64,000 bases of DNA from the NCBI RefSeq assembly GCF_036492635.1, contig NZ_AP025305.1:1736001-1800000 (forward strand), in the 5' to 3' direction. Of this stretch, positions 5,508 through 51,544 are shown one piece after another. This DNA is from Aureibacter tunicatorum. GTDB taxonomy: Bacteria > Bacteroidota > Bacteroidia > Cytophagales > Cyclobacteriaceae. Every line of letters begins with the position of its first letter. Within the stretch, counting starts at the first letter, position 1. Position numbers and translations under genes: made by a program. The notes beneath the pieces are model-generated. The model did no database searches. It had not been told where the DNA came from and saw nothing but the letters and a program-made list of their open reading frames with translations.

Positions 5508-5518
5508 GATTTGATGGT

Positions 5519-6478: not shown

Positions 6479-6529
6479 AAGAAGGTAGAGTTTTGGTGAT
6501 TAAAAATATCAATTAATTCCGCTTGATAA

Positions 6530-7756: not shown

Positions 7757-7894
7757 GGGTTTTAGGGAAGTAGCGTTTGATGAAAAAATATAAAGGTATT
7801 TTTTATGTGTTAGGTTTTTAGAGTAATTATATATTTGAAATGGCATTAATTAATCGCACAACAGATTTGTGAAGTGGCAAGAATAGATATTATT

Positions 7895-17011: not shown

Positions 17012-17206
17012 TTTAAATATTTTAAGCAGGTGTTTATGAGATTGCCCTAAGGTAATATGGACAAACAAAAAATTATTATGCCTAAAATCACTATCCCATT
17101 TAATTTTTTGCTTTATGCGCAGTTTGATGATTAGGTAGTCGTTAAACTCTGATCTTCGAAAAGTTGATATTTTTTTGAATTTGGCATTTATTAGAATCAT
17201 AAAAAA

Positions 17207-17225
17207 CCACGTCCTTTGGGCGTGG
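17207..17225. repeat. left-end hairpin of the IS200-type element
   Basis: The imperfect palindrome CCACG...CGTGG has stem 5 bp plus mismatches and a loop of 9. It is identical to the copy at 17818-17836, in direct orientation. Confidence 0.8.
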
Positions 17226-17309
17226 TCAGAGAGGTTTTACGGGTTTGCCTAAACGGCGTGCCATTGTTACCTTTCAGGCGTTGTCCCCACAACAAAAGAA
17301 AGGCAAACA

Positions 17310-17732
17310 ATGAATAGGTTTAATAAATTATCACACGCCGTATGGTCTTGTTCATATCATATAGTATGGACACCGAAATATAGGTATAGAATATTAAAAG
17401 GCGAAATAAAAAACGAAGTAGAAAAATGTATTCGTACATTTTCGGAACAGAAGAAATGTGTATTAACAGAATTGAATATTCAGGAAGATCACGTTCATTT
17501 GTTAGTACAGATACCCCCCAAATTATCCATATCTGACTATATGGGTATTATAAAAGGAAGGACAGCTATACGTATATTTGGCAAGTTTAAGCATCTAAAA
17601 TGTCGCCCCTATTGGGGCAATAGTTTTTGGGCAAAAGGTTATTGTGTAGACACAGTTGGTTTGAATGAGGAGATGATACGAAAATATGTTAAGTATCAAG
17701 AAGAAAAAGACAAACGAAACGAAAATAGATAA
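17310..17732 (+). CDS. tnpA: IS200-type transposase TnpA (Y1 HUH single-strand transposase)
   Basis: This 140-residue protein has the HUH motif H-V-H (His61, His63) after I-Q-E-D and a catalytic tyrosine in M-I-R-K-Y-V-K-Y-Q (Tyr126). The stretch I-P-P-K-L-S-I-S-D-Y-M-G-x-x-K-G matches IS200/IS1541 TnpA rather than the REP-associated RAYT branch. It acts as a dimer on single-stranded hairpin ends, forming a 5'-phosphotyrosine. The length is complete for the family and the active-site residues are present, so it is probably functional. Confidence 0.93.
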   Translation: MNRFNKLSHAVWSCSYHIVWTPKYRYRILKGEIKNEVEKCIRTFSEQKKCVLTELNIQEDHVHLLVQIPPKLSISDYMGIIKGRTAIRIFGKFKHLKCRPYWGNSFWAKGYCVDTVGLNEEMIRKYVKYQEEKDKRNENR

Positions 17733-22257: not shown

Positions 22258-23067
22258 TTACAATTCATTCTGACCCAAGTACTTTTCTACGGGTTCGACT
22301 TCATAGATATAGCTTCTTGACAAGAAATCATGGAAAAAAGACGCATGAGCTCCCCCTGAGATGATAAGAATTCGGTCATTCTCATCGGCTTCGATCTTGC
22401 AGATATTGGCGAACATTCTTAAGTTTCTTTGATAAAACCGAGCAGCTTCATCCACGCCTTCGAATTTATCAGAGGAGTTAGCATAGAATAGCTGATCAAC
22501 ATTGTAGTTATATAATATAGCGCGAGTTTCGGGCGTATTCATTTGCATCAAGGTCTTTTTTAGCCCGTCTTTCTTTGGGTCTAAAGGCAGTTTAGAAAAT
22601 AAGCTGTCAGCAGTTTGTAGGCTTTTGAAGTAATTTTTTGCATTGAGTTCCTTTGCCAGTTTGTCTTGATAGTAATCGTAGCCCATTTCATGGTCAATGG
22701 CATAGATTCGCTTTGTTTTGGCCAGTCGACCGATTTCGAAAGCTAAGAGTTGTATTTCATTGTCAGCGTAAATGGTTTTCGTTTCGGGATTATTCAAATA
22801 AGCGTCATAGGCACTTTCCACCAAATGTTGGTTCTTTGGAGGTGTTTCTACCATGATTATTGTAGGCTTGAATTTGGCGATCAGCTCATTTACTTCCTTG
22901 ATTTGCTCTTTGTTTTTCTTGTTTTCTTCGTCGTATTCTGTTGTTCTTAAATCATCGGTGTATCCCAAGTGGAAAATGCCTAGATTCAATACTTTGATTT
23001 TATTATCTTGCGCTTGAGCAGTGAACAGCCCGAATAGCAGAGCGATGATTAGAAGTGCGTTTTTCAT
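22258..23067 (-). CDS. secreted TraB/Tiki-like (DUF5694-type) protein, array copy A
   Basis: This is the last of five tandem paralogues. The 269 residues start with a signal peptide (cleavage near A-Q-A-Q, residue 20). Conserved positions: G-I-F-H (Gly30-His33), I-M-V-E (Glu74), Y-A-I-D-H (His126) and S-G-G-A-H (His241), followed by F-F-H-D-F. A G-x-x-H, distant Glu and late G-x-x-H pattern is the signature of the TraB/PrgY/Tiki/EreA-like superfamily, whose Tiki members are metalloproteases. So a periplasmic or secreted hydrolase is plausible but unproven. It has its own copy of the duplicated promoter region (23068-23240). Confidence 0.8.
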   Translation of the reverse strand: MKNALLIIALLFGLFTAQAQDNKIKVLNLGIFHLGYTDDLRTTEYDEENKKNKEQIKEVNELIAKFKPTIIMVETPPKNQHLVESAYDAYLNNPETKTIYADNEIQLLAFEIGRLAKTKRIYAIDHEMGYDYYQDKLAKELNAKNYFKSLQTADSLFSKLPLDPKKDGLKKTLMQMNTPETRAILYNYNVDQLFYANSSDKFEGVDEAARFYQRNLRMFANICKIEADENDRILIISGGAHASFFHDFLSRSYIYEVEPVEKYLGQNEL

Positions 23068-23240
23068 TTTGATAAGCGTTTTGTTTGAAAGGATTATGAT
23101 GTAATGATAGGAAAAGGAACAGAGCCTTATTTTTTTATTATACCAACTAACTGAGTTAATACACCAAAAGTTAGTTTTAAATGCTTTATATTTTTGTCCT
23201 GAGAAAAAGGGTGCAAGTATAAGAAAAGAATCAGTTTGTC
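23068..23240 (-). repeat. duplicated promoter/leader region P1 of the array
   Basis: This is closely similar to 24915-25092 and, over most of its length, to 26768-26925. Shared blocks are the leader CAAACAAAACGC, GGTATAATAAAAAA (read on the minus strand), and the block at 23191-23209. The similarity to P2 continues to the stop of the upstream paralogue, so gene and promoter were copied together. Confidence 0.8.
23191..23209 (-). promoter_or_regulatory. conserved operator-like block, copy 1
   Basis: CTTTTTCTCAGGACAAAAA on the minus strand is identical to the copy at 25037-25055 and differs at one base from 26890-26908. It lies about 125 bp upstream of the start codon in each unit. It is a candidate regulator site shared by the three array units. 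Confidence 0.55.
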
Positions 23241-23260
23241 ATATGATTCTTTCCTAGTGT

Positions 23261-24067
23261 TTATAGGTTGTCATTTGGTTGGAGATATTTTTCAACAGTC
23301 TCGACTTCATAGATAAAGCTTCTTGACAAGAAATCATGGAAAAACGCAGCATGCGCACTGCCTGAGATGATTAGAATTCTGTCGTTTTCGTTGGCTTCGA
23401 TCTTGCAGATATTGGCGAACATTCTTAAGTTCCTTTGATAAAATCTTGCTGCTTGATCTACTCCCTCAAACTTATTTTCGGAATTGACATAAAATAAATG
23501 GTCCACATTGCAGTTATACATAAAGTCACGATATGCTTGGCTGTTGTCGCTAAGAAGAGCTTTTCTTAGTCCCACTTTTTTAGGATCGGCTTCGAGTTTA
23601 GTCGCTTTTTCATCCGTTATTCTGTTCGTTTTAAAATATGTTTTCGCATTTAACTTTTCAGCTAGTTTGTCTTGATTATATCCATAGCCCATGCTTTCAT
23701 CAATGCAGTAGATTCTTTTTGTTCCGGCTAAGCGCCCAATTTCAAATGCCATGAGTCCTTTTTCAGTTTCATAGTTAGCTTTTTCTCCTTCAGGGTCATT
23801 AAGGTATGCTTGATAAGATTTTTCCACTTCTTCCTGATGTTTTGGCAGTTCTTCTATCATGATAATCGTAGGCTTGAACTTGGCGATAAGTTCATTTACT
23901 TCTTGAATCTGGTCCATGTTTGATTTCTCATCATATTCTGTACTATGAGCATCAGGAGTATATCCCATATGGAATACGCCTAGGTTCAATACTTTGATTT
24001 TTTTGTTTTGCGCTTGCGCATTGAACATTCCAAAAAGTAAAGCCATGATTAATATTGTTCTTGTCAT
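23261..24067 (-). CDS. secreted TraB/Tiki-like (DUF5694-type) protein, array copy B, variant motif
   Basis: This copy is 268 residues from ATG 24065-24067 with a signal peptide ending N-A-Q-A-Q. It has G-V-F-H, I-M-I-E and S-G-S-A-H, and the family core A-F-E-I-G-R-L. At the position where the other four copies read I-D-H it reads Y-C-I-D-E: the histidine is replaced by glutamate. It is closest to copy D (shared D-P-E-G-E-K-A and C-terminal P-N-D-N-L). It follows copy C by 34 bp and is presumably co-transcribed with it. Confidence 0.8.
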   Translation of the reverse strand: MTRTILIMALLFGMFNAQAQNKKIKVLNLGVFHMGYTPDAHSTEYDEKSNMDQIQEVNELIAKFKPTIIMIEELPKHQEEVEKSYQAYLNDPEGEKANYETEKGLMAFEIGRLAGTKRIYCIDESMGYGYNQDKLAEKLNAKTYFKTNRITDEKATKLEADPKKVGLRKALLSDNSQAYRDFMYNCNVDHLFYVNSENKFEGVDQAARFYQRNLRMFANICKIEANENDRILIISGSAHAAFFHDFLSRSFIYEVETVEKYLQPNDNL

Positions 24068-24101
24068 TGCAGTGCTTGTTTTAGTTAGGTTAGTCAAATG
24101 T

Positions 24102-24914
24102 TTATAGATTGTTCTCAGGTGATAGGTATTTTTCCACCGACTCTAGTTCATACACACTGCTTCTTGACATGAATTGATGAAAGAAGGAAGCGTGCAATCC
24201 GCCTGAGATTATCAGAATGCGGTCTTCTTCGTTGGTTTTTATTTTGTTGATATTAGCGTACATTCGAAGGTTTCGATGATATAGTTTTGCCGCTTCGTCG
24301 GCTCCTTCGAATTTGTCGTCCGAATTGATATAGGTAAGCATATCTGCGTTGGCATTGATAAGAAAGTTCATGCAAGATTCGGAGTTCATAACAGAAAGTG
24401 TCTCTTTAAGTCCTGATTGGGCTGGATTCAGCTTTGCGATTAATTCGGATTTTTCCAATGTTTTTAAAGTCTGAAAAAATTTGTCAGCTTTTGTTTCTTG
24501 AGCAAGCTCGCCCAGATTGTAATTATAAGCCATAGAGTGGTCGATGGCGTGAATATGTGCCGTGTTGGCGAGTCGTCCGATTTCAAAAGCAAGTATTTCC
24601 ACTTCAGTGCCTCCAAAAGTTGTTTCTTGCTTTGGATCTTTCAAGTAAGAAAGGTAAGCTTCTTCCAATGCATTTTGATCATTGGTTTCGACTTCAACCA
24701 TGATGTGCGTTGGCTTGAATCTAGCGATCAACTCATTTACTTCTTTGATTTGTTTTTTGCTTTCATCCGAGCTTTCGTCATATTCTATTGAGTGGGCATC
24801 GCTTGTATACCCCATATGGAAGACGCCAAGGTTCAATACTTTGATTTTATTATCCTGCGCTTGAGCAGTTAACATTCCGAATAGCAGAGCGATGATTAAA
24901 AGTGCGTTTTTCAT
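24102..24914 (-). CDS. secreted TraB/Tiki-like (DUF5694-type) protein, array copy C
   Basis: The start is ATG 24912-24914 (M-K-N-A-L-L-I, identical to copy A for 12 residues), giving 270 residues with a signal peptide ending A-Q-A-Q. Motifs: G-V-F-H, I-M-V-E, H-A-I-D-H and S-G-G-L-H. The second half is the most diverged of the five (K-T-L-E-K-S-E-L-I-A, M-N-S-E-S-C-M-N). It is the first gene of the C-B unit and has promoter copy P2 upstream. Confidence 0.8.
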   Translation of the reverse strand: MKNALLIIALLFGMLTAQAQDNKIKVLNLGVFHMGYTSDAHSIEYDESSDESKKQIKEVNELIARFKPTHIMVEVETNDQNALEEAYLSYLKDPKQETTFGGTEVEILAFEIGRLANTAHIHAIDHSMAYNYNLGELAQETKADKFFQTLKTLEKSELIAKLNPAQSGLKETLSVMNSESCMNFLINANADMLTYINSDDKFEGADEAAKLYHRNLRMYANINKIKTNEEDRILIISGGLHASFFHQFMSRSSVYELESVEKYLSPENNL

Positions 24915-25092
24915 TTTGATAGGCGTTTTGTTTGAATGATTATGATGCAATGATAGGAAATGGAATAGAGGCTTATTTTTTTATTATACCCACTGATTGT
25001 GTTTATACACCAAAAGGTAGTTTTAAATGCTTTATTTTTTTGTCCTGAGAAAAAGGGCGCAAGTATAACAAAAGCCCTAGTTTGTCATATGA
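24915..25092 (-). repeat. duplicated promoter/leader region P2 of the array
   Basis: This is the second copy of the region described at 23068-23240. The two agree over nearly their full length, with scattered substitutions, including the segment AGTTTGTCATATGA at their distal ends. Confidence 0.8.
25037..25055 (-). promoter_or_regulatory. conserved operator-like block, copy 2
   Basis: This is the exact match to 23191-23209, at the same distance from the start codon of copy C. Confidence 0.55.
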
Positions 25093-25106
25093 ATATCAGC
25101 AAGTGC

Positions 25107-25913
25107 TTATAGGTTGTCATTTGGGTGAAGGTATTTTTCAACAGGCTCAACCTCATAGATATAGCTTCTTGACAAGAAATCATGGAAAAATGAAGCATGC
25201 GCCGCACCGGAGATGATAAGAATTCTGTCGTTTTCGTTGGCTTCGATCTTGCAGATATTAGCGAACATTCTAAGGTTTCTATGATAAAATTTCGACGCTT
25301 GATCTACACCTTCGAATTTATTTTTTGAGTTCGCATAGAAAAGATAATCGACATTGGAGTTGAATGACTGATCTCGGTACCCTTGAGTATTCATATAGCT
25401 TATCACATTTTTAAAGCCGACGATCTCAGGATTTCTTTTTTCAATTTTTCTTAGTGAGTCCACGATGTTGACTGTTTCAAAGTAATTGTCTGAATTAAGC
25501 TTTTTGGCTAATCTATCTTGATAATATTGATAACCCATTTTGTGGTCTATGGCATATATTCTTTTAGTGCCGGCCAGACGGCCAATTTCAAAAGCCATAA
25601 GTCCTGTTTCATTCGTATATTTTGCTTTTTCTCCTTCAGGGTCATTAAGATAAGCTTGATAAGACTTTTCAAGATCTGCTTGATATTTCGGAGATTTTTC
25701 AACCACAATGATGGTGGGTTTAAACTTCGCGATGAGTTCGTTTACTTCTTGAATTTGACTCATATTTGATTTTTCATCAAATTTAGTTGAATGAGCGTCC
25801 GGAGTATAGCTCAAATGGAAGACGCCAAGATTCAATACTTTGATTTTATTATCCTGAGCTTGAGTAGTGAATATGCTAAGAATTAGGGCGATGATTAAAA
25901 GCGATTGTTTCAT
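25107..25913 (-). CDS. secreted TraB/Tiki-like (DUF5694-type) protein, array copy D
   Basis: This copy is 268 residues with a signal peptide ending T-T-Q-A-Q. Motifs: G-V-F-H, I-V-V-E, Y-A-I-D-H and S-G-A-A-H. It is very close to copy B in the first 130 residues and the last 70, but between them (about 140-190) the two differ greatly, marking a variable middle segment across the family. It is the second gene of the E-D unit, 47 bp after copy E. Confidence 0.8.
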   Translation of the reverse strand: MKQSLLIIALILSIFTTQAQDNKIKVLNLGVFHLSYTPDAHSTKFDEKSNMSQIQEVNELIAKFKPTIIVVEKSPKYQADLEKSYQAYLNDPEGEKAKYTNETGLMAFEIGRLAGTKRIYAIDHKMGYQYYQDRLAKKLNSDNYFETVNIVDSLRKIEKRNPEIVGFKNVISYMNTQGYRDQSFNSNVDYLFYANSKNKFEGVDQASKFYHRNLRMFANICKIEANENDRILIISGAAHASFFHDFLSRSYIYEVEPVEKYLHPNDNL

Positions 25914-25960
25914 GATTTTTTAGTAAAAGTGAGGGTGATTATTAATAATTTTGGAAAGGG

Positions 25961-26767
25961 TTATAGTGTACTGTCTTCAGTTAGATATTTCTCAACTGAT
26001 TCAAGCTCGTATATATAGCTTCTCTTGAAGAAATCGTGGAAGAAAGTCGCATGAGCTGCTCCAGAGATGACAAGAATTCTGTCTTCTTCGTTGCTTTCTA
26101 CTTTATTGATATTGGCAAACATTCTAAGGTTTCTTTGGTAAAATATTGCCGCTTGGTCAGCTCCTTCAAAATTGTCTTCGGAATTCACATAAGTCAGTTT
26201 GTCTGCGTTGCCATTGATCGAGGCAGTTCTGTATTCTTCGGTGTTCATGTTATTTAACACTTCTTTGAAACTGGACTTCATTGGAGTAGTCTTTAAGTTG
26301 GCATAGACTTCTTTTTTTCTTTTTTCTGTTTCGAAGTACTTTTCAGCGCCATATTCTTCCGCCAGGCCTGATAAGTTGTAGGCATAGTTCATTTTATGAT
26401 CGATTGCGTAAATTCTTTTGGTATTAGCAAGTCTTCCGATTTCAAATGCCATGATTTGTATTTCATTATTAGCATATCCGGTTTTGATTGTCGGGTCATT
26501 GACATAAGCTTGATAAGCTTTCTCAAGTTCTTTTTGGTATTTGGGAAGCGTTTCCACCATGATGATCGTAGGCTTGAATCTAGCGAGAAGTTCATTGACT
26601 TCTTGGATTTGCTTCATGTTGGAGGCCTCATCAAACTCGGTCTTATTTGCATCAGTAGTAAAACCCATATGGAACATTCCTACATTAAGAACTTTTATTT
26701 TTTTATCCTGTGCATGAGCAGTGAATATTCCGATGAATAATGCGATGGCTAGAAGTGCGTTTTTCAT
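25961..26767 (-). CDS. secreted TraB/Tiki-like (DUF5694-type) protein, array copy E
   Basis: The start is ATG 26765-26767 (M-K-N-A-L-L-A), giving 268 residues with a signal peptide ending A-H-A-Q. Motifs: G-M-F-H, I-M-V-E, Y-A-I-D-H and S-G-A-A-H. It is the first gene of the array and is divergent from a LytS-type sensor kinase across a 224-bp spacer that carries promoter copy P3. Confidence 0.8.
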   Translation of the reverse strand: MKNALLAIALFIGIFTAHAQDKKIKVLNVGMFHMGFTTDANKTEFDEASNMKQIQEVNELLARFKPTIIMVETLPKYQKELEKAYQAYVNDPTIKTGYANNEIQIMAFEIGRLANTKRIYAIDHKMNYAYNLSGLAEEYGAEKYFETEKRKKEVYANLKTTPMKSSFKEVLNNMNTEEYRTASINGNADKLTYVNSEDNFEGADQAAIFYQRNLRMFANINKVESNEEDRILVISGAAHATFFHDFFKRSYIYELESVEKYLTEDSTL

Positions 26768-26925
26768 TTTGATAAGTGTTTTGTTAGAATGATTATGATG
26801 CAATGATAGGTAAAGGGTGGGGAGGTGATTTTTTTATTATACCAACGAATAGAACTTTTACACGAAATGAAGAAAGTGCTTGACATTATTTTTTGTCATG
26901 AGAAAAAGCTAATTTGTATAAAATA
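26768..26925 (-). repeat. duplicated promoter/leader region P3 of the array
   Basis: This is the third, more diverged copy of the array promoter. It shares the leader next to the start codon, GGTATAATAAAAAAAT and the operator-like block, but has its own sequence between them. It lies in the divergent spacer before the sensor kinase gene. Confidence 0.7.
26890..26908. promoter_or_regulatory. conserved operator-like block, copy 3
   Basis: CTTTTTCTCATGACAAAAA has one substitution relative to copies 1 and 2. Here it lies between array gene E and the divergent two-component operon, so a bound regulator could act on both. Confidence 0.5.
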
Positions 26926-33640: not shown

Positions 33641-34933
33641 TTAATCGGTGTTGGCTTCAAGCAATAAAAAGCTGTAGTCGGTTTTGACTTTGCTATTTCT
33701 GGTGCGGGCGGTGCTATGGCAGCCCATGCAGCTTGATTCCAGTGGAATAAATGTTTCCATGGTTGTATTCGCCAAAATGTTTGGAGCTGGAGTCCCTTGC
33801 GGGTTTGCTGGATTTTTGGGATCTGTAGGCCATTGCGTAGCGATCAATTTGTAATTTTCCCAAGCGGTTCCTTTCAAGGCTTTTTGATATTGAGCATTCA
33901 AGGCTTTAGCCTCCTCTGTAAGCAAAGTCATTCTTACCACTTGAGTAGGTTTGATTGGCTTGCCGGGTTCAAAGGTTTGTTGATTGGCAGGGCAAGCAGC
34001 TGAGTCGCATTCAGGGTTGTAGTAAGTGTATTTGTTGTCTTTTCTGATACTGTCAGGAGTATTGAAAATTGGGTTGTTGCCAATATGCTCAAAAGTAGCC
34101 CATACCCATTGCGGTGAGCTCGAGGTTTTGTATGCAATATGCAAGCCTGTTAAGCCTACAAGCTTTTCCATATATTCGCCAGTAGGTTCGCCTGTGTTTT
34201 CGTTGATTTTTGCGACCATTGCTTTTGTGGTGAAAAACTTGCTGGCATCGTCGTCTTGTTCGATAATAGTCCATGCGGATTTGATTTCCATGGAAGTGGC
34301 AGGAAACTTAACATCTTTGTTAAGGGCGTTTAACACATTTCCGTCATAGAATTTGTTGTCAAGGATATAGTCATACTCTACTTGGTTCATATACCTTTCG
34401 TAATAACTGAAATTGCTGTTTTGATCGATTAATGAACCTCCAACCGCTTGATCAATAGAGCCTAAAAATGGTTTGATATTTTCAGCTACTTTGGAATGGC
34501 TAATTAATCGTAGTTGGTCGTTTGGATAGCCGGTATCCCATGGCATCATGCTGTCTGGCGAGTGTTTAAACGCTTCTGTGGAGGTTTTCAAGGACATCCA
34601 AACAGGGATAGAATTTCCCGGAGATAAAATGCTCTTTGTAGTGTCTGGCACGCCTCTCATCGTCGAGCTTGCCGGCCAACACATCGCCACGAACATTTGC
34701 CAGCCATATTCATCAAAGTAGACTTGCGTGCGCTCGCTTGGATTTGGAGAGTCAGTTACCGGAAAGGTATAACTTAGATCCGAATGATAGGCTTGATGTT
34801 TTTCCTCTTCTTGAGAGCTTGAGTTGTTGTCACCTCCGCTGCTTTTGTTGGTTGTGGTGCAGGCGATGAATATGCCATAGGCGATGATACTGCTTAAGAT
34901 CATCACCATGGGTTTTGATATTGAGATTTTCAT
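33641..34933 (-). CDS. lipoprotein with a C-terminal heme-c motif
   Basis: This 430-residue lipoprotein has a leader ending I-A-C (Cys25), followed by a low-complexity S/N/E linker. A single C-M-G-C-H motif (Cys402, Cys405, His406) near the end would covalently bind one heme. The body carries W-Q-M-F-V-A-M-C-W-P and many aromatic residues and does not match a c-type cytochrome domain I can name. It is the last gene of a minus-strand operon with a VTT-domain membrane protein and a large orphan. It is probably a periplasmic redox lipoprotein; substrate and partner unknown. Confidence 0.75.
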   Translation of the reverse strand: MKISISKPMVMILSSIIAYGIFIACTTTNKSSGGDNNSSSQEEEKHQAYHSDLSYTFPVTDSPNPSERTQVYFDEYGWQMFVAMCWPASSTMRGVPDTTKSILSPGNSIPVWMSLKTSTEAFKHSPDSMMPWDTGYPNDQLRLISHSKVAENIKPFLGSIDQAVGGSLIDQNSNFSYYERYMNQVEYDYILDNKFYDGNVLNALNKDVKFPATSMEIKSAWTIIEQDDDASKFFTTKAMVAKINENTGEPTGEYMEKLVGLTGLHIAYKTSSSPQWVWATFEHIGNNPIFNTPDSIRKDNKYTYYNPECDSAACPANQQTFEPGKPIKPTQVVRMTLLTEEAKALNAQYQKALKGTAWENYKLIATQWPTDPKNPANPQGTPAPNILANTTMETFIPLESSCMGCHSTARTRNSKVKTDYSFLLLEANTD

Positions 34934-34953
34934 TTTTTAATTTTTTTAGACTT

Positions 34954-35598
34954 CTAAATTTGTTTTGAAGCTGCTTTTTCTGATTTGGTGAAGTAAGAAA
35001 ATAGCCAAAATATGCTGCTGATGCTTATTACAGCTATGAAGCTCCATAAGCTGGACTCAAGTGTAGCTGCGAAAGCACCGGTATAAGCGTATATGATCAC
35101 TCCCGGCAAGTAACCAAAGAATGAGGCTATGGCAAGCTTGCGAGGGTTTAAGCCCATAGCAGCTGCCATTAGCAAAATGGTTTCCGACAGCATAGGAATA
35201 GATCTTGAAATGATAATGGCTATCAAGCCCCATTTTGAGATGAACTGTTCAGCTTGGAGCTTTTCTTTTTCATTAAGCCATTGATTGGTTTTTTCTGTGA
35301 ACTTGCTTCCGATCAATATTCCAAATGATGTTGAAATCATCAAGTCTAGCATGGAAATAGCAGCTCCCAGAGCAGTGCCGAATATTGCTCCGTTGGCGAT
35401 CAGTATCACAGTTGAAGGTACTGGCAAGATAATATCCAAGCTTAGCAATAATGTTCCCCATCCAAAGGCTATAAGTCCATTGGAAGATTGAAGGTAGTCT
35501 GGGTTTTTCAAAAATTGAATATCCAATGATTCCACCAAGATGAAGCTAGCTAAGATGAAAGTTAATATCGCTAGTGCTGTCGTTAACCATTTTTTCAT
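34954..35598 (-). CDS. TVP38/TMEM64-like (VTT/DedA superfamily) membrane protein
   Basis: This 214-residue protein has five to six hydrophobic segments. The VTT-domain core is recognisable in A-I-F-G-T-A-L-G-A-A-I-S-M-L (re-entrant loop) and S-R-S-I-P-M-L-S-E-T-I-L-L-M-A-A-A-M-G. DedA/VTT proteins are lipid scramblase-like or proton-linked carriers of the inner membrane. It lies between the heme lipoprotein (20-bp gap) and the 640-residue orphan (9-bp gap) and is clearly part of their operon. Confidence 0.85.
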   Translation of the reverse strand: MKKWLTTALAILTFILASFILVESLDIQFLKNPDYLQSSNGLIAFGWGTLLLSLDIILPVPSTVILIANGAIFGTALGAAISMLDLMISTSFGILIGSKFTEKTNQWLNEKEKLQAEQFISKWGLIAIIISRSIPMLSETILLMAAAMGLNPRKLAIASFFGYLPGVIIYAYTGAFAATLESSLWSFIAVISISSIFWLFSYFTKSEKAASKQI

Positions 35599-35607
35599 AT
35601 TATAGGA

Positions 35608-37530
35608 TTAAGTAAGCGGTAGATTATTTGAATATTCAAGGTATTGTCTCAAAAGAGTGGTTTTCCCAGGCGACATAACGTGTGTCATTGGCATGAATAA
35701 AGAGGTGTCTCTATATTGATCAGAGATTCTTTTAAGTACTTCTGCATATACATTGTCAGTGATAAGCGTTTCATTATTTAATGGCAATCGAAGCGACATC
35801 GCTGGGAATATAACATAGTAGTATCTGAGCACTTCAGGATAGACAAAGTCCCAAGTGAACTTATCGCTCTCATCCATGTGGGAGTAATCGTCGTTTTGAT
35901 AAGTTTTTGCGACAGCGTAGAAGCTATTTTTGATGCCATTGATTTTAGAGAAGTTTATTTGCCTATATCCTCCAACTATCCATCCTAAATCGAGCGCGCA
36001 GCCATTTGCTTCTTTTCCTGTGATTGTTAATGTGTATTTTTCGTTTCCTTCTTCTTCTGAAACAGTATTTAGATTCCCTACAGCACTTGTTAATGCAATA
36101 TTCAAAGCTTTGTGTTGATCGAATTCAGCTTGAAGAGTGCCAGTGAATTCCAAGTCAAATTCTATTTCAATACTATCGCTTGGAGAGAGAGGTTTGCCAA
36201 GCTTCTCAATTTTGAAATTCAGCGGATTGGTTTCATTTGGGTTGATATAGAGATACTTGTCTTCGCTTCTTATGACATAAATCTCTTCACTCAGTAGCGT
36301 GATTGGATCATTGTCGGAATTAGTTAAAATCAGTCCAACAGGATTATTTTCAATTTCAGTGATATCATCTGCATTCATTGCGACATCGACTACACCTCCG
36401 GTCTTAAAATAATTCTCGTTGTCGTAATCGATGGTATTGTCAAATTGAGTTTTAATATTTCCGTCATTGTCAAAAGTCACCAATTTCAATTCTCCATCGA
36501 GAGTCACATTAGGTCCGATTTGCCCAACATTTTCAATTTGATTAATTCGTTCTTTGTTTTTCGCAGGATCATTTAAGGCTTCCTCGCTTGAAATGGTGAA
36601 CCTAGGAGATTTTTTTATGAAGCACTTTGAAAGATCAATGCTTAGCGTATTGTTTTGGTCAATGCTGAAAAAAGCTGATGAGCCAATGGTTTCTTTGCTT
36701 TTTATAGAATGTGTAGGAGAAATTACTCTTCCCGACGGAGAACTAGCTAATTCATCAGCTTCCCACACACCTATATTCCCAATGGTATAGCCAATGACAG
36801 GATTCATTGTTCCTTTTCCTTCATTGAAGTCCGCGCTAAGGTTTTGCGAAAGTATAGCCGGGGCCATTTCAAAAATGGAGAAGTTGATAGTAATTCCTTT
36901 ATTCTTTTTTACCTCATCCATTAATGCTTTGATAGTTTCATTGCTTTCATCCACAATCCAGCTATCGTCGTATGCATAACTGACTTGCCAAGTCGCCATA
37001 AAGCTGCTAAAACCACCTGCTTTGATGGATCTTGGGTCAATATAGTAGTTGGCAGATGATACATTTCCAGTTATCTTTAGTAGCGGATTATCCATGTCGT
37101 CGCCGATTAGAAGTCCCCCAAAAATCACTCTCGAACAACTAGTCCCAGTTGGGTCCATGTCGATCATGATAGGGCTTCCATATCTGCTGTGTTGATTCGT
37201 GGGGTCTACGGATCCTAAAAAATAAAATGGCAATGGCTCTGATAAAGGATTAATGTCTCCAGGCATCCCCGCTGATGTAATGCCAAGTTGCTTGAATAAG
37301 AAAGCGTAGTCCCCAAAAAAATTCCATCCTGATGAGACATATGAACCGTTTTGAGTTAACTGTTTCAGCTTGTGTTGCGCTTCTTCATCGGACAAATCCG
37401 CAAAGTCGCCAGCCAAAGAGCCGTTTACAGGATCCATTACGAACAAGCCGACATCGTCATTATTGGCTGTGCAAGGGTTGAATGAACAGCCTCCCGAGAA
37501 GCTGAGCCTAAAATTGTTAAGGTAGGACAT
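35608..37530 (-). CDS. large hypothetical protein, 640 aa
   Basis: Not recognised. It has no signal peptide: the N-terminus (M-S-Y-L-N-N-F-R-L-S-F-S-G-G-C-S-F) is polar and contains two early cysteines (about 15 and 20). It is mostly beta-strand, with D/N/G-rich turns throughout and no repeated blade that I can align. First gene of the operon, followed 9 bp later by the VTT membrane protein and then the heme lipoprotein. The consistent spacing suggests one function shared by the three. Confidence 0.7.
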   Translation of the reverse strand: MSYLNNFRLSFSGGCSFNPCTANNDDVGLFVMDPVNGSLAGDFADLSDEEAQHKLKQLTQNGSYVSSGWNFFGDYAFLFKQLGITSAGMPGDINPLSEPLPFYFLGSVDPTNQHSRYGSPIMIDMDPTGTSCSRVIFGGLLIGDDMDNPLLKITGNVSSANYYIDPRSIKAGGFSSFMATWQVSYAYDDSWIVDESNETIKALMDEVKKNKGITINFSIFEMAPAILSQNLSADFNEGKGTMNPVIGYTIGNIGVWEADELASSPSGRVISPTHSIKSKETIGSSAFFSIDQNNTLSIDLSKCFIKKSPRFTISSEEALNDPAKNKERINQIENVGQIGPNVTLDGELKLVTFDNDGNIKTQFDNTIDYDNENYFKTGGVVDVAMNADDITEIENNPVGLILTNSDNDPITLLSEEIYVIRSEDKYLYINPNETNPLNFKIEKLGKPLSPSDSIEIEFDLEFTGTLQAEFDQHKALNIALTSAVGNLNTVSEEEGNEKYTLTITGKEANGCALDLGWIVGGYRQINFSKINGIKNSFYAVAKTYQNDDYSHMDESDKFTWDFVYPEVLRYYYVIFPAMSLRLPLNNETLITDNVYAEVLKRISDQYRDTSLFMPMTHVMSPGKTTLLRQYLEYSNNLPLT

Positions 37531-37883: not shown

Positions 37884-39305
37884 ATGAATCGCAGAGTTGA
37901 ATTAAAGGGAATTTTTTTATTGGCCTTGTTTTTATTTTATGCGGCTGAGGGCAACAGTTTTGCGGCAAAAGACAAAATTTCAAAAGCTGAGAAAAAGGAA
38001 TATCAAGAACGAGTGAAAACAGCCTTCAAAAAAGGTTGGAAAGCTTACAAGGATTATGGCTGGGGACAGGATGCTGTGAATCCTATCAAAGAAGGAAGCC
38101 ATAATTGGTATGCGGAATCATTATTGATGACGCCTGTTGACGCTTTTAGCACGATGTATTTGATGGGGCTGGAAGGTGAAATGGAAGAATGCAAGGAGCT
38201 GATATTTTCAGAGCTTGATTTTGACAAGGATTTTGAAGTTCAGCAATTTGAAATAGCGATTAGAATACTGGGAGGCTTGATTTCCTCTTATCAGTTGGAT
38301 GGAGATGAAAGATTTTTGGAGTTGGCGAAGGAGTTGGGCGATCGAATGATTCCTGTTTTTGACTCACCGACTGGAATCCCGTACCGATTAGTGAACTTGC
38401 GTACTGGTAAAGCTGGTGGAGAAGGAACTAATCCTTGCGAAGTTGGCTCTATGTTATTGGAGTATGGCATGTTGAGCAAGTTGACAGGAGATCCGAAATA
38501 CTATGAGCTTTGCAAGCGAGGAGTTGTCGCTTTATATGAAAGAAGAGGAGAAACAGGTCTGCTGGGATCATGGATTGATGTGGAAACAGGAGAATGGCAA
38601 GACAAACGAGCTCATATCTCTGGAGGAATCGATGCATATTATGAATATTTGCTCAAAGGCTATTTGCTATTTGGCGATGAAGATCTAAAAGTAATGTGGG
38701 ATACTTGCCGCAAGGCAGTCGACACTTATCTGGTTGATGAGAATGAAAACGGATACTGGATTGGCTGGGCAGATATGGATACGGGCAAAAGAGGCCTGAC
38801 TCGTTTTGGAGCTTTGGATTGTTTTTGGAACTTGTGCTATGTGCTTGATGGTGACAATGAAAGAGCCGAGAAACTGCAGGCCTCTATCTACAACATGTGG
38901 AAAATCTACGATATCGAGCCAGAGGCTATTGATTATATGAAAATGGAGCCTTATGAAGGCACTGAATATTATATGATTCGTCCCGAGGCGATAGAGTCTA
39001 CATATTATACTTGGAAAGCTACAGGAGATAAAAAGTATTATGATCAAGGAAAGCATATGTTTGAGAGTATTGAAAAATACTGTCAAGTTGATAATGGCTA
39101 TGTTCAGTTGCAAAATGTGATTACCAAAGAAAAGTGGGACACTTTGGAAAGCTTCTTTTTCGCTGAGACAATGAAGTATTGCTACTTGTTCTTTGCTCCC
39201 GAAGATGTATTTGATTTTGAAAAGTATGTGTTGAATACTGAAGCGCACCCTTTCAAAAATACTTGGGACAAAGGTTGGAAAGGCAATAAAGTTGGATTGA
39301 AATAA
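37884..39305 (+). CDS. secreted GH47-like alpha-1,2-mannosidase
   Basis: This 473-residue protein has a signal peptide ending S-F-A-A. The (alpha/alpha)7-type fold carries class I mannosidase signatures: R-P-E-A-I-E-S-T-Y-Y (catalytic Glu region), L-E-S-F-F-F-A-E-T-M-K-Y-C-Y-L-F-F, and near the C-terminus N-T-E-A-H-P, whose Thr ligates the essential calcium in GH47. The length matches bacterial GH47 enzymes, which trim alpha-1,2-mannose. It precedes a glycyl radical enzyme operon in the same direction but is separated from it by a strong terminator (39313-39336), so co-expression may be partial. Confidence 0.88.
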   Translation: MNRRVELKGIFLLALFLFYAAEGNSFAAKDKISKAEKKEYQERVKTAFKKGWKAYKDYGWGQDAVNPIKEGSHNWYAESLLMTPVDAFSTMYLMGLEGEMEECKELIFSELDFDKDFEVQQFEIAIRILGGLISSYQLDGDERFLELAKELGDRMIPVFDSPTGIPYRLVNLRTGKAGGEGTNPCEVGSMLLEYGMLSKLTGDPKYYELCKRGVVALYERRGETGLLGSWIDVETGEWQDKRAHISGGIDAYYEYLLKGYLLFGDEDLKVMWDTCRKAVDTYLVDENENGYWIGWADMDTGKRGLTRFGALDCFWNLCYVLDGDNERAEKLQASIYNMWKIYDIEPEAIDYMKMEPYEGTEYYMIRPEAIESTYYTWKATGDKKYYDQGKHMFESIEKYCQVDNGYVQLQNVITKEKWDTLESFFFAETMKYCYLFFAPEDVFDFEKYVLNTEAHPFKNTWDKGWKGNKVGLK

Positions 39306-39347: not shown

Positions 39348-40235
39348 ATGGAAGGTATCATTACACATATTCAAAGGTTGTCCATACATGATGGACCGGG
39401 TATCCGCTCTGTGATCTTTCTTAAAGGATGCAATATGCGATGCGCTTGGTGTCATAATCCGGAGACATTTTACAAAAGAAGACAGCTGCAATTTTATCCT
39501 GAGAAGTGCAACGCATGTTTGGAATGCTTGAAGAAGTGTGATGAGGAAGCATTGAAGGTGGAAAATGGCAAAATTAGCTTGAATAGAGAACTTTGTTCTG
39601 AATGCATGGAATGCTTGTCTGTTTGCTATAATGTAGTGCTGAAATCAGTAGGCGTAAAACATACTGTCGAGAGTTTATTGGCGGACTTGCGTAAGGATTT
39701 TCCATTTTTCAAGACATCCAATGGAGGGGTTACTCTCTCGGGAGGAGAACCTATGATGCAGTTTGGTTTCGTTGCGGAATTGTTGCAGTCACTGAAGTCA
39801 GAGGGGGTGCATGTATGCATAGAGACTAATTTGTCATTGCCTTGGGAAAAGTATGAACCTGTTTTGGAGCTTGTAGATTACTGGCTTGTAGATTTGAAAA
39901 TGATCGATGAAGAGCAACATAAAAAATGGACGAAGATATCCAATAAAAGAATTCTTAAGAATATCAAAAAGCTTGATCAATCAGGGTATTCTTATGAGTT
40001 AAGATGTCCTGTGGTTCCGGAAGTGAATGATTCAGACGAAAGCATTAAGGCAATTGGCAATTTTTTAAAAGGCTTGGATAATGCTCAACAGTTTACGCTT
40101 AATCCATTTCATAGGTTGGGAGAACCAAAGTATCAAGCATTGGGAATGGAAAGTGCTTTTGAGTGCAATGAGGAGGTAAGCAAGAGCAAGATTGAACACT
40201 TAAATCAGATTCTTAACGATGAAAATATTAGATAA
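39348..40235 (+). CDS. glycyl-radical enzyme activating protein (radical SAM)
   Basis: This 295-residue protein has C-N-M-R-C-A-W-C (C-x3-C-x2-C) binding the SAM [4Fe-4S] cluster. An inserted bacterial ferredoxin-like domain follows with two C-x2-C-x2-C-x3-C motifs (C-N-A-C-L-E-C-L-K-K-C and C-S-E-C-M-E-C-L-S-V-C). T-L-S-G-G-E-P is the SAM-binding strand. This is the activase class of the eliminase-type glycyl radical enzymes rather than PflA, which lacks the extra clusters. It overlaps the enzyme gene by 17 bp. It installs the glycyl radical under anaerobic conditions. Confidence 0.95.
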   Translation: MEGIITHIQRLSIHDGPGIRSVIFLKGCNMRCAWCHNPETFYKRRQLQFYPEKCNACLECLKKCDEEALKVENGKISLNRELCSECMECLSVCYNVVLKSVGVKHTVESLLADLRKDFPFFKTSNGGVTLSGGEPMMQFGFVAELLQSLKSEGVHVCIETNLSLPWEKYEPVLELVDYWLVDLKMIDEEQHKKWTKISNKRILKNIKKLDQSGYSYELRCPVVPEVNDSDESIKAIGNFLKGLDNAQQFTLNPFHRLGEPKYQALGMESAFECNEEVSKSKIEHLNQILNDENIR

Positions 40236-42384
40236 CACTTTTTTTAAATATCAATCCAGAATAGATGCTTTGAAAAAAGCCAAGCATCAACAAACTAGAG
40301 AAAAAATCCAAAAGGAAGGACTGTTGGATGAAGATGATTATGGGCGTCTGGCTGTGCCTGACGAAGCATGGAAGATCAAGCCCAATCACGCTGATGGTTC
40401 TTTTTATGGTTTGGATGGTTGGACTGAGAATTTTTGCGATTTGATGGATAATCATCCTGTTTATGTTGATGCAAATGATGCTTTTGCTGGACGATGGATT
40501 TATTTTATGTCGAAGATGAGGCCGAATAAATGGAATCCGGATTTTCCGTTCGAGCATTTGCATGAAGACCAAGAAAGATATGACATTATTCATGGCATAG
40601 GAGACGATGCTCATTTTGCTCCCGATTATGCTTTGGGTTTGGAGCTTGGCTGGCAAGGTATTCTAGACAAAATCGAAAAGTATAAAGCCATCAATACTAG
40701 AGAGGAGGCTTTGGCTTTTTATCAAGCTCATGAAAAAGCTGTGAAAAGCGTGATGGGTTGGATTGGAAGACATGTGAATCATATTGATGCTTTGATAGAG
40801 TGTCAAGATGATATAGAGCTTAAGGAAAATTTGATGGAAATGGCTGAAGTGAATAGAAATTTGCTTCATCAACCGCCTAGAACATTTCGTGAGGCATGCC
40901 AATGGATTATTTGGTATCATTTAGCTTCAAGAACTTATAATAGAGATGGAGCGGGAGGTCAGATAGACGAATTGTTGCGTCCTTATTATGAGATGGATTT
41001 AGCATCTGGAATTTTAGACAGGGAAAAGGCCGTATATTATTTGTCCTGTTTTTTGATCAATGATCCGATTTATTGGCAGTTAGGCGGACCGGATGGTAAT
41101 GGAGGCGATGTCGCTTCTGAATTTTCATATTTGGTATTGGAAGCTTGTGACAAGGTGAATACATCGCTTAATATCACCATCCGAGTGCATGAAAATATGG
41201 ATGAGAAGCTCTTTGGAAAATCGTTGCATTATCTTGTGAAGCATAAAAACGCATGGCCGCGCTATTCAGGCGACAAGGCTTTAGTGGAAGGCTTTATGAA
41301 GAATGGTTATTCGGAAGAATTGGCGAGAAAAAGGATTGCCGTAGGGTGCAATTGGATGTCATTGCCGGGTTTGGAATACACGATGAATGATTTAGTCAAG
41401 GTGAATATGGCTAAAGTATTTGAAGTCGCTTGGGAAGAGATGCAGAAGCAAGAAACAACGATGTCCACGGGGCGTTTGTGGTTGAAGTTTTGCGCGCATC
41501 TTGAAACAGCGATCCATACCGCCGCGGAAGGCATTAGGCATCAATTAAAATTTCAAAAGCATAATGAGCCTGAATTGTTGCTGAATTTATTGTCTTATGG
41601 TCCTTTGGAATTAGGAAAAGATGTGAGTGATGGCGGAGCGACTTTTTATAATTTGGCAATTGATGGAGCGGGGCTAGCTGTAGTGGCGGACTCGTTCGCT
41701 GCTTTGCAACAAAGAGTTGAAATAGAAAAAAAACTTGATTGGAATGAATTGGCATTAATATTAGCGAATGATTTTGAAACGACTGATGGAGATCGAATTC
41801 GAAATATGCTGTTAAGTTCTGATCGGTATGGACAAGGTTCTGGCAGAGGCGATGAATGGGCGAAAAGAATTAATGACATCTTTTCAAAATTGGTAAAAGC
41901 GGAATCGGATGATGAAGCAGGCCATTGCTTTATCCCTGGTTTTTTCTCATGGGCGAATACTGTTGGCCTTGGTAAGAGCGTGAAAGCATTGCCGAACGGC
42001 AGAAAATCCGGAGAGCCGATTTCTCACGGAGCGAATCCCACGCCGGGCTTTGTTATTGATGGAGCTTCCCTCGCTTTGGCAAGAGCTGTGGCTGAAGTGC
42101 AACCGGGCTTCGGAAATACAGCGCCTATGCAATGGGAGCTTGACCCCACATTGGCAAAGAAAGAGCATTTGTCTTTGATAGGCGCGATAATCAAAGCGCA
42201 TTTTGATATGGGAGGCACTTTGATTAATGTGAATGTCATGGATGAAAATGAGATATTGGCAGCTCATGAAAATCCAGAAAAATATCCGAACCTTGTTGTG
42301 CGAGTGACAGGTTTTACAGCTTATTTTTCTATGTTGACCAAAGAATTCAGGCAATTAGTTGTGGATAGAATATTATTGAACTAA
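40219..42384 (+). CDS. glycyl radical enzyme (PFL-like) of unassigned reaction
   Basis: This 721-residue protein carries the glycyl-radical motif R-V-T-G-F-T-A-Y-F (Gly698) near the C-terminus. The thiyl cysteine is expected at Cys377, in V-G-C-N-W-M-S-L-P-G. The known eliminases (choline, diol, hydroxyproline, isethionate) have C-x-E, and PFL has C-C; neither is present here, so the substrate class looks different. The G-G-Q-I-D-E-L-L-R-P-Y-Y and R-T-F-R-E-A-C-Q-W segments confirm the barrel. It is slightly short for the family. It starts 17 bp inside the activase gene; its TAA overlaps the cupin ATG as TAATG. Probably sugar-related by context, not proven. Confidence 0.93.
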   Translation: MKILDNTFFKYQSRIDALKKAKHQQTREKIQKEGLLDEDDYGRLAVPDEAWKIKPNHADGSFYGLDGWTENFCDLMDNHPVYVDANDAFAGRWIYFMSKMRPNKWNPDFPFEHLHEDQERYDIIHGIGDDAHFAPDYALGLELGWQGILDKIEKYKAINTREEALAFYQAHEKAVKSVMGWIGRHVNHIDALIECQDDIELKENLMEMAEVNRNLLHQPPRTFREACQWIIWYHLASRTYNRDGAGGQIDELLRPYYEMDLASGILDREKAVYYLSCFLINDPIYWQLGGPDGNGGDVASEFSYLVLEACDKVNTSLNITIRVHENMDEKLFGKSLHYLVKHKNAWPRYSGDKALVEGFMKNGYSEELARKRIAVGCNWMSLPGLEYTMNDLVKVNMAKVFEVAWEEMQKQETTMSTGRLWLKFCAHLETAIHTAAEGIRHQLKFQKHNEPELLLNLLSYGPLELGKDVSDGGATFYNLAIDGAGLAVVADSFAALQQRVEIEKKLDWNELALILANDFETTDGDRIRNMLLSSDRYGQGSGRGDEWAKRINDIFSKLVKAESDDEAGHCFIPGFFSWANTVGLGKSVKALPNGRKSGEPISHGANPTPGFVIDGASLALARAVAEVQPGFGNTAPMQWELDPTLAKKEHLSLIGAIIKAHFDMGGTLINVNVMDENEILAAHENPEKYPNLVVRVTGFTAYFSMLTKEFRQLVVDRILLN

Positions 42385-42797
42385 TGAAAATAACAGAGAA
42401 GTACAAGCATGAAGGAGAAGGTTATTCTCCTTTTCTGATCAGACCGGGATGGCAGGTAGCTCAGCTTAATTATGAAGAATCCCTTGAAATTGAAAATATC
42501 AATAGGTTGGATGTTCATTTTGAAACTGACGAGGCTTTTCTATTGATGGAAGGGAATGCCCTTCTTGTTTCCGCTCAAATAGAGGAAGATAGAATCGCTT
42601 ATGATATGCAAGTAATGGAAACGGGCATTATTTACAACATTCCAAAAAATGTTTGGCATACCATAAGTTTAAAAGAAAATGCGAAAGTCTTGATCATTGA
42701 AAATGACAATACGCATAAAGATGATTTTGAATTTTATTATTTTAAAAAAGAACAGCAAAGAGAGTTCTTAGAAGCGGCAATGGATATTTGGCCTTGA
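42384..42797 (+). CDS. small cupin-fold protein
   Basis: This 137-residue protein has the two cupin half-motifs: H-F-E-T-D-E-A-F-L-L-M-E-G and I-P-K-N-V-W-H-T-I-S (third histidine). Metal ligands are thus likely. Small cupins of this kind are often sugar isomerases, epimerases or ligand-binding proteins. It shares one base with the end of the glycyl radical enzyme gene (TAATG), so it is translationally coupled. It may process the enzyme's product or substrate. Confidence 0.82.
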   Translation: MKITEKYKHEGEGYSPFLIRPGWQVAQLNYEESLEIENINRLDVHFETDEAFLLMEGNALLVSAQIEEDRIAYDMQVMETGIIYNIPKNVWHTISLKENAKVLIIENDNTHKDDFEFYYFKKEQQREFLEAAMDIWP

Positions 42798-50209: not shown

Positions 50210-51544
50210 TTATCGAGCGCTAATGTTTGCTCGAATAATTTGAGTAGGTCTTAGTGTCAAAACAGCCTTGGCGTTAACATTTTTGTCTACTAATTCAAGG
50301 TTGAAGTTTTTGAGCATCTTGGCAAGTAGCAATACGCCTTCAGCCATGGCGAAGTGGTTGCCTATGCACTTTCGAGAACCTGCTCCAAAGGGAACGTATT
50401 GGCATTTATGCATATCTTTGTTGTCTCCATTGTAAAATCTGTAAGGGTCAAAAGTGTCAGGTTTTTTCCAATACGTTGAGTTTCTGTGCAGTCCGCTAAT
50501 GAAGATGGCTATGTCGCTGCCCTTAGGAAATGAAAAATTACTGGCTTCAACATTCTCAAGCGGAATCCTTCCAATAGACCATGCGCTTGGGTACATTCTG
50601 AGCCCTTCTTCAAATATCGCTTTGACAAATGGAAGTTTTTCTGTCAATTGATAACCGGAAACATTATCGGTGTAGTTTGTGTCGATTTCCTCGATGGCTT
50701 TGCTTAAGTGTTCAGGATGTTTGCAGAGCTCGGCCAAAGTAAAGCTCAAAGCGGAAGCGGTGGTTTCATGCCCCGCAATCATGGTGGTGATGACTTCATC
50801 CCTGACATCTTTGAGACTGAAAGGCTTGTCTTCATCATTCATGGCTCCGATAAGCATATCCAATAAGTTGTATCTGCCTTTTTCTTCCTCAGGCATATTT
50901 ATTCTTTCATTGGTGAGCTTGAAGATGATATCATCGAATCTTTGCCTGCTTTCCTCGAAACTTTTGTTTTTACCATTCCAATTGGCGCTAAGCGCATAGA
51001 AAGGGTTCCAAAACTTTTTAATGATATGCTCAAGTGAAAATGTCAAGTCCTCGTAGATCTTTTCAGAATCGATCTGTACTTGATTTCCAAACATTGTTCG
51101 AAGTATGATTTTCAAGGTAATGTCCATCATTGTTCGGTCCAAGTCAATTTGCTTTTTGCTTTGGAGGTCAATAATGAATTCATCCACGCATTCTTCCATT
51201 TCTTCGAAAATGTTCTTGATGGCGTTTTTTTGGAAAGCAGGGTTCATCTTTACCCTTTTTCTTTTCCATGTTTCGCCTTCAGCGCTGATCAAGCCGTCTC
51301 CCCCAAGTTCTTTAAGTATCTCATAGGCTTCTGACTTTTTGAAGCTTTTTTGTTGCTTTACTAGAATTTCTTCCGTGACTTTAGGGCAAGAAATAAGGTA
51401 AATGGTTTTAATTCCAGTGTTGATTTTAATGACATCGCCTTTATCTCTAGAAGCATCCATTAAAAAATCCAAGGTATTGTTGCTAAGGGATTGGATGTTT
51501 GAAAACCAGTTTTTACCGGCAGTTGGAATTTGATTTGTAGACAT
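50210..51544 (-). CDS. cytochrome P450
   Basis: The 444-residue protein has the P450 landmarks: I-helix A-G-H-E-T-T-A-S, K-helix E-E-G-L-R (ExxR), and the heme loop F-G-A-G-S-R-K-C-I-G-N (axial Cys393). There is no fused reductase, so it needs a separate ferredoxin or flavodoxin partner, and none is nearby. No signal or membrane anchor. It resembles the CYP102-heme/CYP4-like bacterial group acting on fatty or terpenoid substrates, but the substrate is not predictable. Confidence 0.94.
   Translation of the reverse strand: MSTNQIPTAGKNWFSNIQSLSNNTLDFLMDASRDKGDVIKINTGIKTIYLISCPKVTEEILVKQQKSFKKSEAYEILKELGGDGLISAEGETWKRKRVKMNPAFQKNAIKNIFEEMEECVDEFIIDLQSKKQIDLDRTMMDITLKIILRTMFGNQVQIDSEKIYEDLTFSLEHIIKKFWNPFYALSANWNGKNKSFEESRQRFDDIIFKLTNERINMPEEEKGRYNLLDMLIGAMNDEDKPFSLKDVRDEVITTMIAGHETTASALSFTLAELCKHPEHLSKAIEEIDTNYTDNVSGYQLTEKLPFVKAIFEEGLRMYPSAWSIGRIPLENVEASNFSFPKGSDIAIFISGLHRNSTYWKKPDTFDPYRFYNGDNKDMHKCQYVPFGAGSRKCIGNHFAMAEGVLLLAKMLKNFNLELVDKNVNAKAVLTLRPTQIIRANISAR

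Follow-up and report, generated by a model that had tools for sequence, protein, structure and literature searches.

Comparison with Described Glycyl Radical Enzymes

The known dehydratases and lyases of the glycyl radical enzyme (GRE) superfamily rely on a Cys-x-Glu active-site loop. Two members from Escherichia coli act on sugar derivatives: according to PMC12441222, PflD and YbiW cleave 1,5-anhydromannitol-6-phosphate and 1,5-anhydroglucitol-6-phosphate, respectively, to 1-deoxyfructose-6-phosphate after uptake by the phosphotransferase system (PTS), and PDB titles list PflD solved with 1,5-anhydromannitol-6-phosphate (8id0) and YbiW with 1,5-anhydroglucitol-6-phosphate. Here we describe an oxygen-sensitive GRE from Aureibacter tunicatorum, encoded in a 64,000-nt stretch of contig NZ_AP025305.1 (positions 1,736,001 to 1,800,000; the whole stretch is referred to as the window), in which the loop around the predicted thiyl cysteine Cys377 reads V-G-C-N-W-M-S-L-P-G. 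The open reading frame (ORF) matches exactly the one given in the initial annotation (Table 1), and alignment confirmed Cys377, Gly698 and the C-N-W loop reported there. We put at about 0.58 the probability that this enzyme represents a distinct new GRE subfamily, here called CNW, acting on a free manno-configured sugar.

The protein belongs to the GRE superfamily, with a PFL-like domain (PF02901, E 2.8e-96) and a Gly_radical domain (PF01228, E 1.4e-12) both above the gathering score, a glycyl radical motif around Gly698 (R-V-T-G-F-T-A-Y-F), the thiyl cysteine and the GRE fold. What sets it apart is the residue two positions after the cysteine, which is Trp379 in the window GRE, Glu in PflD and YbiW and Ser in E. 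coli PflB. This bears out the initial annotation, since among 29 comparison GREs (PflD, YbiW, PflB and 26 others, 24 of them from other genomes and two from the same genome) the residue is Glu in 27, and the remaining two, PflB and the Aureibacter protein L002, have Ser after Cys-Cys. The Cys-x-Glu loop of the eliminases is therefore missing. Scores against the NCBIfam GRE equivalogs that the protein matches all fall far below their cut-offs, including CutC (140.6 bits against 1050), HypD (165.7 against 1100) and PRK09983 (PflD, NF007437; 200.2 against 1109). The CutC, HypD, HpsG/HpfG, IAD and HPAD equivalogs together give 96.5 to 173.1 bits against cut-offs of 1000 to 1150; these enzymes share the superfamily, but their Cys-x-Glu is absent from the window GRE. 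TIGR01774, which describes the PFL2/glycerol dehydratase subfamily, gives 254.2 bits against a cut-off of 678.2. Pyruvate formate-lyase (PFL) is likewise a superfamily member, but TIGR01255 gives only 70.8 bits against 994.2, Cys-Asn replaces Cys-Cys, and the best phmmer stretch against PFL covers only residues 535-718, placing the window GRE outside that class; a separate Cys-Cys PFL-type protein is encoded in the same genome at L002.

The best PDB match by profile search is PflD (8yjo, E 2.1e-64), and PflD also heads the VIA-align comparison of our GRE structure model (mean pLDDT 78, pTM 0.81), with Z 31.5, a root-mean-square deviation (rmsd) of 3.2 and 673 residues aligned, the next row having Z 30.8. 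Z values for full-length GREs against the model run from 24 to 31, and among the rows listed the fumarate-adding benzylsuccinate synthase type lies at lower Z values of 25.6-27.6. PflD and YbiW share with the window GRE the fold, a His at position 132 and, as proposed here, sugar-derived substrates, and PflD has the same C-x-x-x-S-x-P-G-x-x-Y-x-x-x-D register, including Asp391. However, PflD is only 24.0% identical, is not the sister of the window GRE in our tree and has Glu rather than Trp at Cys+2. The substrate loop reads TYNRDG in the window GRE as opposed to ESNG or ESNA in PflD and YbiW, and, whereas the latter receive their substrates through the PTS, CNW loci have a symporter and cupin context, with no PTS gene seen among the subset of neighbours annotated. 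The B12-independent glycerol dehydratase of C. butyricum (1r8w) is also alike in fold (Z 30.4, rmsd 3.4, 680 aligned); its His164 aligns with His132 and its Cys+14 Asp with Asp391, but its Cys+2 Glu pairs with Trp379 and its substrate-loop His-Ser falls in a gap. We take His164, Glu435 and Asp447 to be functional residues of the dehydratase. The shortness of the protein noted in the initial annotation is genuine and largely explained by residues missing relative to the aligned GREs, with gaps of ~20 residues just before the GG motif (near 283), ~8 near 128 and 2-3 near 246, which together account for ~30 of the 44 residues that separate it in length from PflD (765 amino acids).

Distribution and Phylogeny of the CNW Subfamily

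Relatives with the C-N-W loop were found at 30 other loci, with 62-72% identity to the window GRE and apparently all in Bacteroidota. A first contig scan with the window GRE returned 22 of these (62-71% identity), 21 of which have Bacteroidota record titles and one of which is titled as a "Chlorobiota" metagenome-assembled genome (MAG); this MAG (G614) is probably also Bacteroidota, as it groups with the family of the Puteibacter genome G615. A search of 98 relatives, the Aureibacter genome included, added G441, and three group searches added seven more: matches were found in 4/393 genomes from the order of G623 (three already known), 4/140 from the family of G615 (two already known) and 6/250 from the family of G625 (two already known). 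A profile search of a 395-genome phylum sample found a full-length CNW member in the Aureibacter genome only, the other 22 matches being partial hits of 110-152 bits to other GREs, and none was found in 164 genomes from the order of G345, a sample that contained no positive genome and therefore says little. Groups outside Bacteroidota were covered by the close-relative contig scan only. The CNW family is rare and patchy, and record titles place its members in cultured Flammeovirga, Puteibacter and Labilibaculum and in MAGs from rumen, colon and faeces.

The motif GCNWMSLPG is identical in 22/22 rows of alignment A1, in which mean column identity is 75%, arguing that the loop is not a chance substitution. 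Across the wider set, both the motif and Asp391 occur in 31/31 CNW sequences, but nine of those ORFs were picked from their loci by the motif itself, so that 22/22 is the unbiased count for the loop. His132, Tyr240-Asn241-Arg242-Asp243 and Gly698 are invariant in all 30 sequences that span these positions. The alignments of CNW and comparison GREs revealed no further invariant cysteine restricted to the family.

In a maximum-likelihood tree of 52 sequences (23 CNW and 29 others; 679 of 901 columns), in which E. coli supplies the characterised enzymes and CutC and HypD are absent, the CNW sequences form one clade with support of 100 on a stem of 2.78 substitutions per site. Identity to the window GRE within the tree set drops from 62.2% to 24.6% with nothing between. 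The suggestion that the enzyme lies outside the characterised clusters thus holds, both in this tree and by equivalog scores that are a small fraction of their cut-offs, and no description of a CNW-loop enzyme was seen among the matches listed in a literature search of open-access full text, subscription papers lying outside its scope. CNW enzymes therefore appear to be a small, apparently undescribed bacterial GRE subfamily. The tree also contains a separate unusual GRE, L044, which has a C-G-E loop, a 754-amino acid open frame and a long branch.

Conserved Gene Neighbourhood

We examined 31 loci (the window, L004-L025, L057, L062 and L073-L078); several are cut by contig ends, and all counts below are lower bounds. 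The activase overlapping the start of the GRE gene scores 321.7 bits against TIGR02494 (cut-off 174.35), placing it in that family, and its translation carries a CxxxCxxC motif and two CxxCxxCxxxC motifs. The two extra ferredoxin-type motifs had been noted in the initial annotation and are present, but the pointer to eliminases drawn from them is weak because TIGR02494 spans several kinds of GRE activase. An activase was found in 28/31 loci, in 27 of them within 150 nt of the GRE and in L010 at 1.2 kb, while the other three contigs are cut off. A cupin protein is present in 23/31 loci, with D43, H45, E50 and H92 invariant in alignment A2 (18 sequences). Both structure comparisons of its model (mean pLDDT 91) are headed by 3d0j (Z 16.8, rmsd 2.7, 120 aligned), a C. 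acetobutylicum protein that is uncharacterised and is also the best profile match (E 2.7e-27); in VIA-align, TDP-sugar 3,4-ketoisomerases come next (Z ~11, rmsd ~3, 10-13% identity). A role for the cupin as an enzyme that rearranges keto-sugars would be compatible with these structure matches.

Table 1. Features of the GRE locus, with positions counted from the first nucleotide of the window.
Feature	Position	Strand	Basis
GH47-family alpha-mannosidase-like protein, 473 aa, N-terminal signal-like segment (by eye)	37884..39305	+	PF01532
GRE activase, radical SAM with two extra 4Fe-4S motifs, 295 aa, overlaps GRE start	39348..40235	+	TIGR02494
GRE, 721 aa, CNW subfamily	40219..42384	+	ORF, Pfam, alignment, tree
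Codons Cys377-Asn378-Trp379, predicted thiyl cysteine and Trp replacing the usual Glu	41347..41355	+
Codon Gly698, predicted glycyl radical site (RVTGFTAYF)	42310..42312	+
Cupin, 137 aa, conserved partner, predicted metal-binding	42384..42797	+	Alignment A2, structure model
AraC-type regulator with AraC_binding/cupin domain, 277 aa	42858..43691	-	Homologue in 15/31 loci, window included

The window also encodes a GH47 alpha-mannosidase-like protein next to the activase, which matches PF01532 with 392 bits (cut-off 22.9) over residues 47-458 and profile positions 1-454 of 455, making it a member of the family; it is the only GH47 found in the genome. In 19/31 loci the GRE has an alpha-mannosidase (GH47, GH92 or GH38) no more than 2.1 kb away. 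GH47 accounts for ten (the window, L004, L005, L006, L015, L020, L022, L023, L057 and L062), GH92 for eight (L013, L016, L017, L021, L024, L025, L073 and L075) and GH38 for L074. Pfam bears out nine of the ten GH47 assignments, the GH92 of L016, L017, L021 and L024, and the GH38 of L074; the GH47 of L062 and the GH92 of L013, L025, L073 and L075 were assigned by similarity. Farther out, a GH92 lies ~7.8 kb from the GRE in L062, and a GH92-like piece 9.2 kb from it in L011. Strong GH47 matches (E < 1e-100) occur in 9/22 GRE genomes as one copy each, and 9/9 are inside the GRE locus; an extra 20-bit match in G618 was not counted. In the phylum sample GH47 was found in 41/395 genomes at E <= 0.001 and as a strong match in 32/395, the Aureibacter genome included. 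GH47 is therefore not specific to the GRE, but it is commoner alongside it and physically linked to it.

Sugar transporters also recur, with RhaT-type symporters in 9/31 loci and Sugar_tr-type transporters in two (L020 and L074), assigned by Pfam for L008, L016 and L020 and by similarity for the remainder. Three loci differ in content: L076 and L077 each encode a NanM-like domain in fusion with a sodium symporter, L077 has a DHDPS-like gene as well, and L018 has, besides a sialidase-like BNR protein, a DHDPS-like gene whose product reaches only 28 bits against N-acetylneuraminate lyase models. From their gene content we regard these three as putative sialic-type loci. None of these markers was seen in L007, L014 or L019, beyond a SusC in L014 and a URO-D protein in L019. 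Proteins of URO-D type lie close to the GRE module at L019:12608-13639 (Pfam), L023:8916-9944 and L074:15746-16771 (both by similarity); they might reflect methylated sugars or mere proximity. A partial ORF at L057:19124-19501 (-) resembles GH130 mannoside phosphorylases by eye, a possible mannose link. Two single long frames were observed in the rumen MAG locus L016, at 2892-8141 and 12549-17486, encoding a GH92-CBM-GH92 fusion (1749 amino acids) and a RhaT-GH92(PA14)-GH28-like fusion (1645 amino acids) with no stop at the RhaT-GH92 junction. In L017 and L025 the GH92 and GH28-like proteins are separate genes; a transporter-glycosidase fusion would be odd and may be an assembly matter.

Proposed Function and Alternatives

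The data above show an unusual loop that does not vary, a clade of its own, a conserved set of genes and a link to alpha-mannosidases. We propose that Bacteroidota have a small anaerobic module for sugars in which the CNW GRE is the catalytic subunit; it is made up of the AraC regulator, activase, GRE and cupin and is often joined by an exported alpha-mannosidase or a sugar transporter. We infer that the enzyme acts in the cytoplasm on a free manno-configured sugar. Extracytoplasmic alpha-mannosidases would free mannose, going by their gene families, and a proton or sodium symporter would import the free, non-phosphorylated sugar, as many loci have RhaT-, Sugar_tr-, MFS- or SSF-type genes next to them. 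Following established GRE chemistry, for which the motifs are present, the activase would generate the Gly698 radical, which would pass to Cys377. The Cys377 thiyl may then take a C-H hydrogen from a manno-sugar held by Trp379 and the Y240-N241-R242-D243 loop, which is specific to the family. Loss of the C-O bond adjoining the ketyl radical would give a keto-deoxy or anhydro-keto sugar; the acid-base work for which other enzymes use Glu would perhaps fall to Asp391 and His132, and the cupin might, more speculatively, rearrange the resulting keto-sugar. A subfamily that has lost the Glu yet keeps the other signs of activity, and that is linked to alpha-mannosidases, points to a concrete class of substrate and offers a way to ask whether GRE chemistry reaches free hexoses and how a radical enzyme copes with a sugar when the usual base is absent. 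A new route from mannose-rich glycans could also bear on the anaerobic fermentation of fungal mannan and N-glycans.

Several observations weigh against this proposal. Recurring genes for a kinase, an aldolase or a reductase were not seen in the module, so that it offers no evident onward route for an eliminated product. For the cupin, Foldseek places 3-hydroxyanthranilate dioxygenase above the ketoisomerases, and its only Pfam match is a sub-threshold one to the same dioxygenase family (3-HAO). The structural comparisons of the GRE are not unanimous either, as a single-sequence phmmer search of the PDB ranks 2f3o first and Foldseek lists 9rco at the top, with 9rco, 7vua and 1r8w preceding PflD and 8yjo sixth; the model itself has a mean pLDDT of only 78. 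The link to alpha-mannosidases has gaps: 12/31 loci have none within 2.1 kb (several contigs being short), four of the nine GH47 genomes are Flammeovirga and so not independent, and background frequency was counted for GH47 only. GH92 is common in Bacteroidota. We also considered whether GH47 predicts the GRE and rejected this, as a strong GH47 occurs in 31/394 of the other genomes in the sample and a full-length CNW GRE in 0/394.

As to the reaction, we slightly favour C-O elimination over radical isomerisation or epimerisation, as a tentative reading that falls somewhat short of an even chance, because most GREs around the CNW family are eliminases, the enzyme retains His132 and Asp391, and the genomes already encode mannose isomerisation. 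Having Trp where Glu would stand takes away the base residue of the known eliminases and makes their standard mechanism doubtful, but elimination with another base is possible since His132 and Asp391 align with residues of glycerol dehydratase and PflD. The reading in the initial annotation is thus partly supported: the enzyme stands apart from the characterised clusters, and the uncharacterised reaction proposed there is a possibility. A split with support of 93 sets the CNW clade, L044 and two PFL-type proteins apart from PflD, YbiW and the remaining GREs, so that PflD is not the sister of the CNW clade, and we lowered our estimate for elimination a little on this account. A radical isomerase or epimerase would do without a general base and so account for the missing Glu, and this reading sits well with a Trp in every CNW member and with the lack of recurring downstream catabolic genes. 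Here the Cys377 thiyl would remove a sugar C-H (e.g., at C2 of mannose or N-acetylmannosamine, ManNAc) and hydrogen would come back either from the opposite face or onto a different carbon, with glucose, N-acetylglucosamine or a ketose as the product and Tyr240 as a possible second donor. The contexts have a manno configuration in common, with mannose from GH47, GH92 or GH38 and presumably ManNAc or mannose at L018, L076 and L077. Nevertheless, we know of no GRE epimerase, no additional invariant cysteine of the family's own was seen, and the activity would often be redundant. Phosphomannose isomerase (PMI) type I catalytic-domain matches lie above the cut-off in 29/29 GRE genomes, many at only 40-56 bits, so that another plain mannose isomerase is not obviously needed; a probe for the PMI C-terminal domain matched 2/29 but says little, as few controls matched either. 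AGE-family matches lie above the cut-off in 23/29, among them the three genomes with sialic-type loci, G624, G1283 and G1353; the Aureibacter match is weak (36.8 bits), five genomes (G441 among them) have none and one falls below the cut-off. Overall, we consider isomerisation or epimerisation rather unlikely. The bolder claim, that this would be the first GRE to rearrange an intact free hexose without elimination, as a thiyl-based epimerase or isomerase on mannose or N-acetylmannosamine, we hold to be unlikely; in that case Trp379 would stand where the catalytic Glu usually is, as a platform for the sugar to stack on, and Tyr240 might be the second hydrogen donor. Two simpler ideas were dropped along the way: that the GRE compensates for a missing ManA was rejected given the PMI matches in every genome, and that it replaces a missing NanE/AGE epimerase is unsupported, given the AGE matches that include the sialic-type genomes.

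The enzyme might instead carry out an ordinary GRE elimination on another substrate that merely travels with alpha-mannan or glycan loci, such as rhamnose, another deoxy sugar or an anhydro-alditol resembling those on which PflD and YbiW act. The RhaT-like symporters, a GH78-type rhamnosidase in L074 and the position of PflD as best profile match and first VIA-align row fit this idea, but the GH78 reference matched that one locus only, Cys-x-Glu is absent, and the PTS that phosphorylates the PflD and YbiW substrates on entry, according to PMC12441222, has no counterpart among the annotated neighbours; we judge it quite unlikely. That the protein is a degenerate or non-catalytic GRE, as the loss of one otherwise conserved catalytic residue might suggest, is very improbable given the retention of Cys377 and Asp391 in 31/31 sequences and of His132 and Gly698 in all 30 that cover them, the activase in every locus not cut off, and the high identity across the family.

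Other Features of the Window

Outside the GRE locus, a cytochrome P450-like protein was recognised by eye at 50210-51544 (-), and the genome encodes three PFL-like proteins; this combination suggests a facultative lifestyle. Five tandem paralogues of 268-282 amino acids at 22258-26803 (-) have signal-like N-termini and the motif IKVLNLG.FH or similar. Three adjacent genes at 33641-37530 (-) encode, as read by eye, a 640-amino acid protein, a 214-amino acid DedA/VTT-like membrane protein and a 430-amino acid lipoprotein-like protein, the last with a CMGCH motif near its end. Transposase-like ORFs at 2035-3003 (-) and 17310-17732 (+) resemble, by eye, an IS3-type integrase and an IS200-like element.

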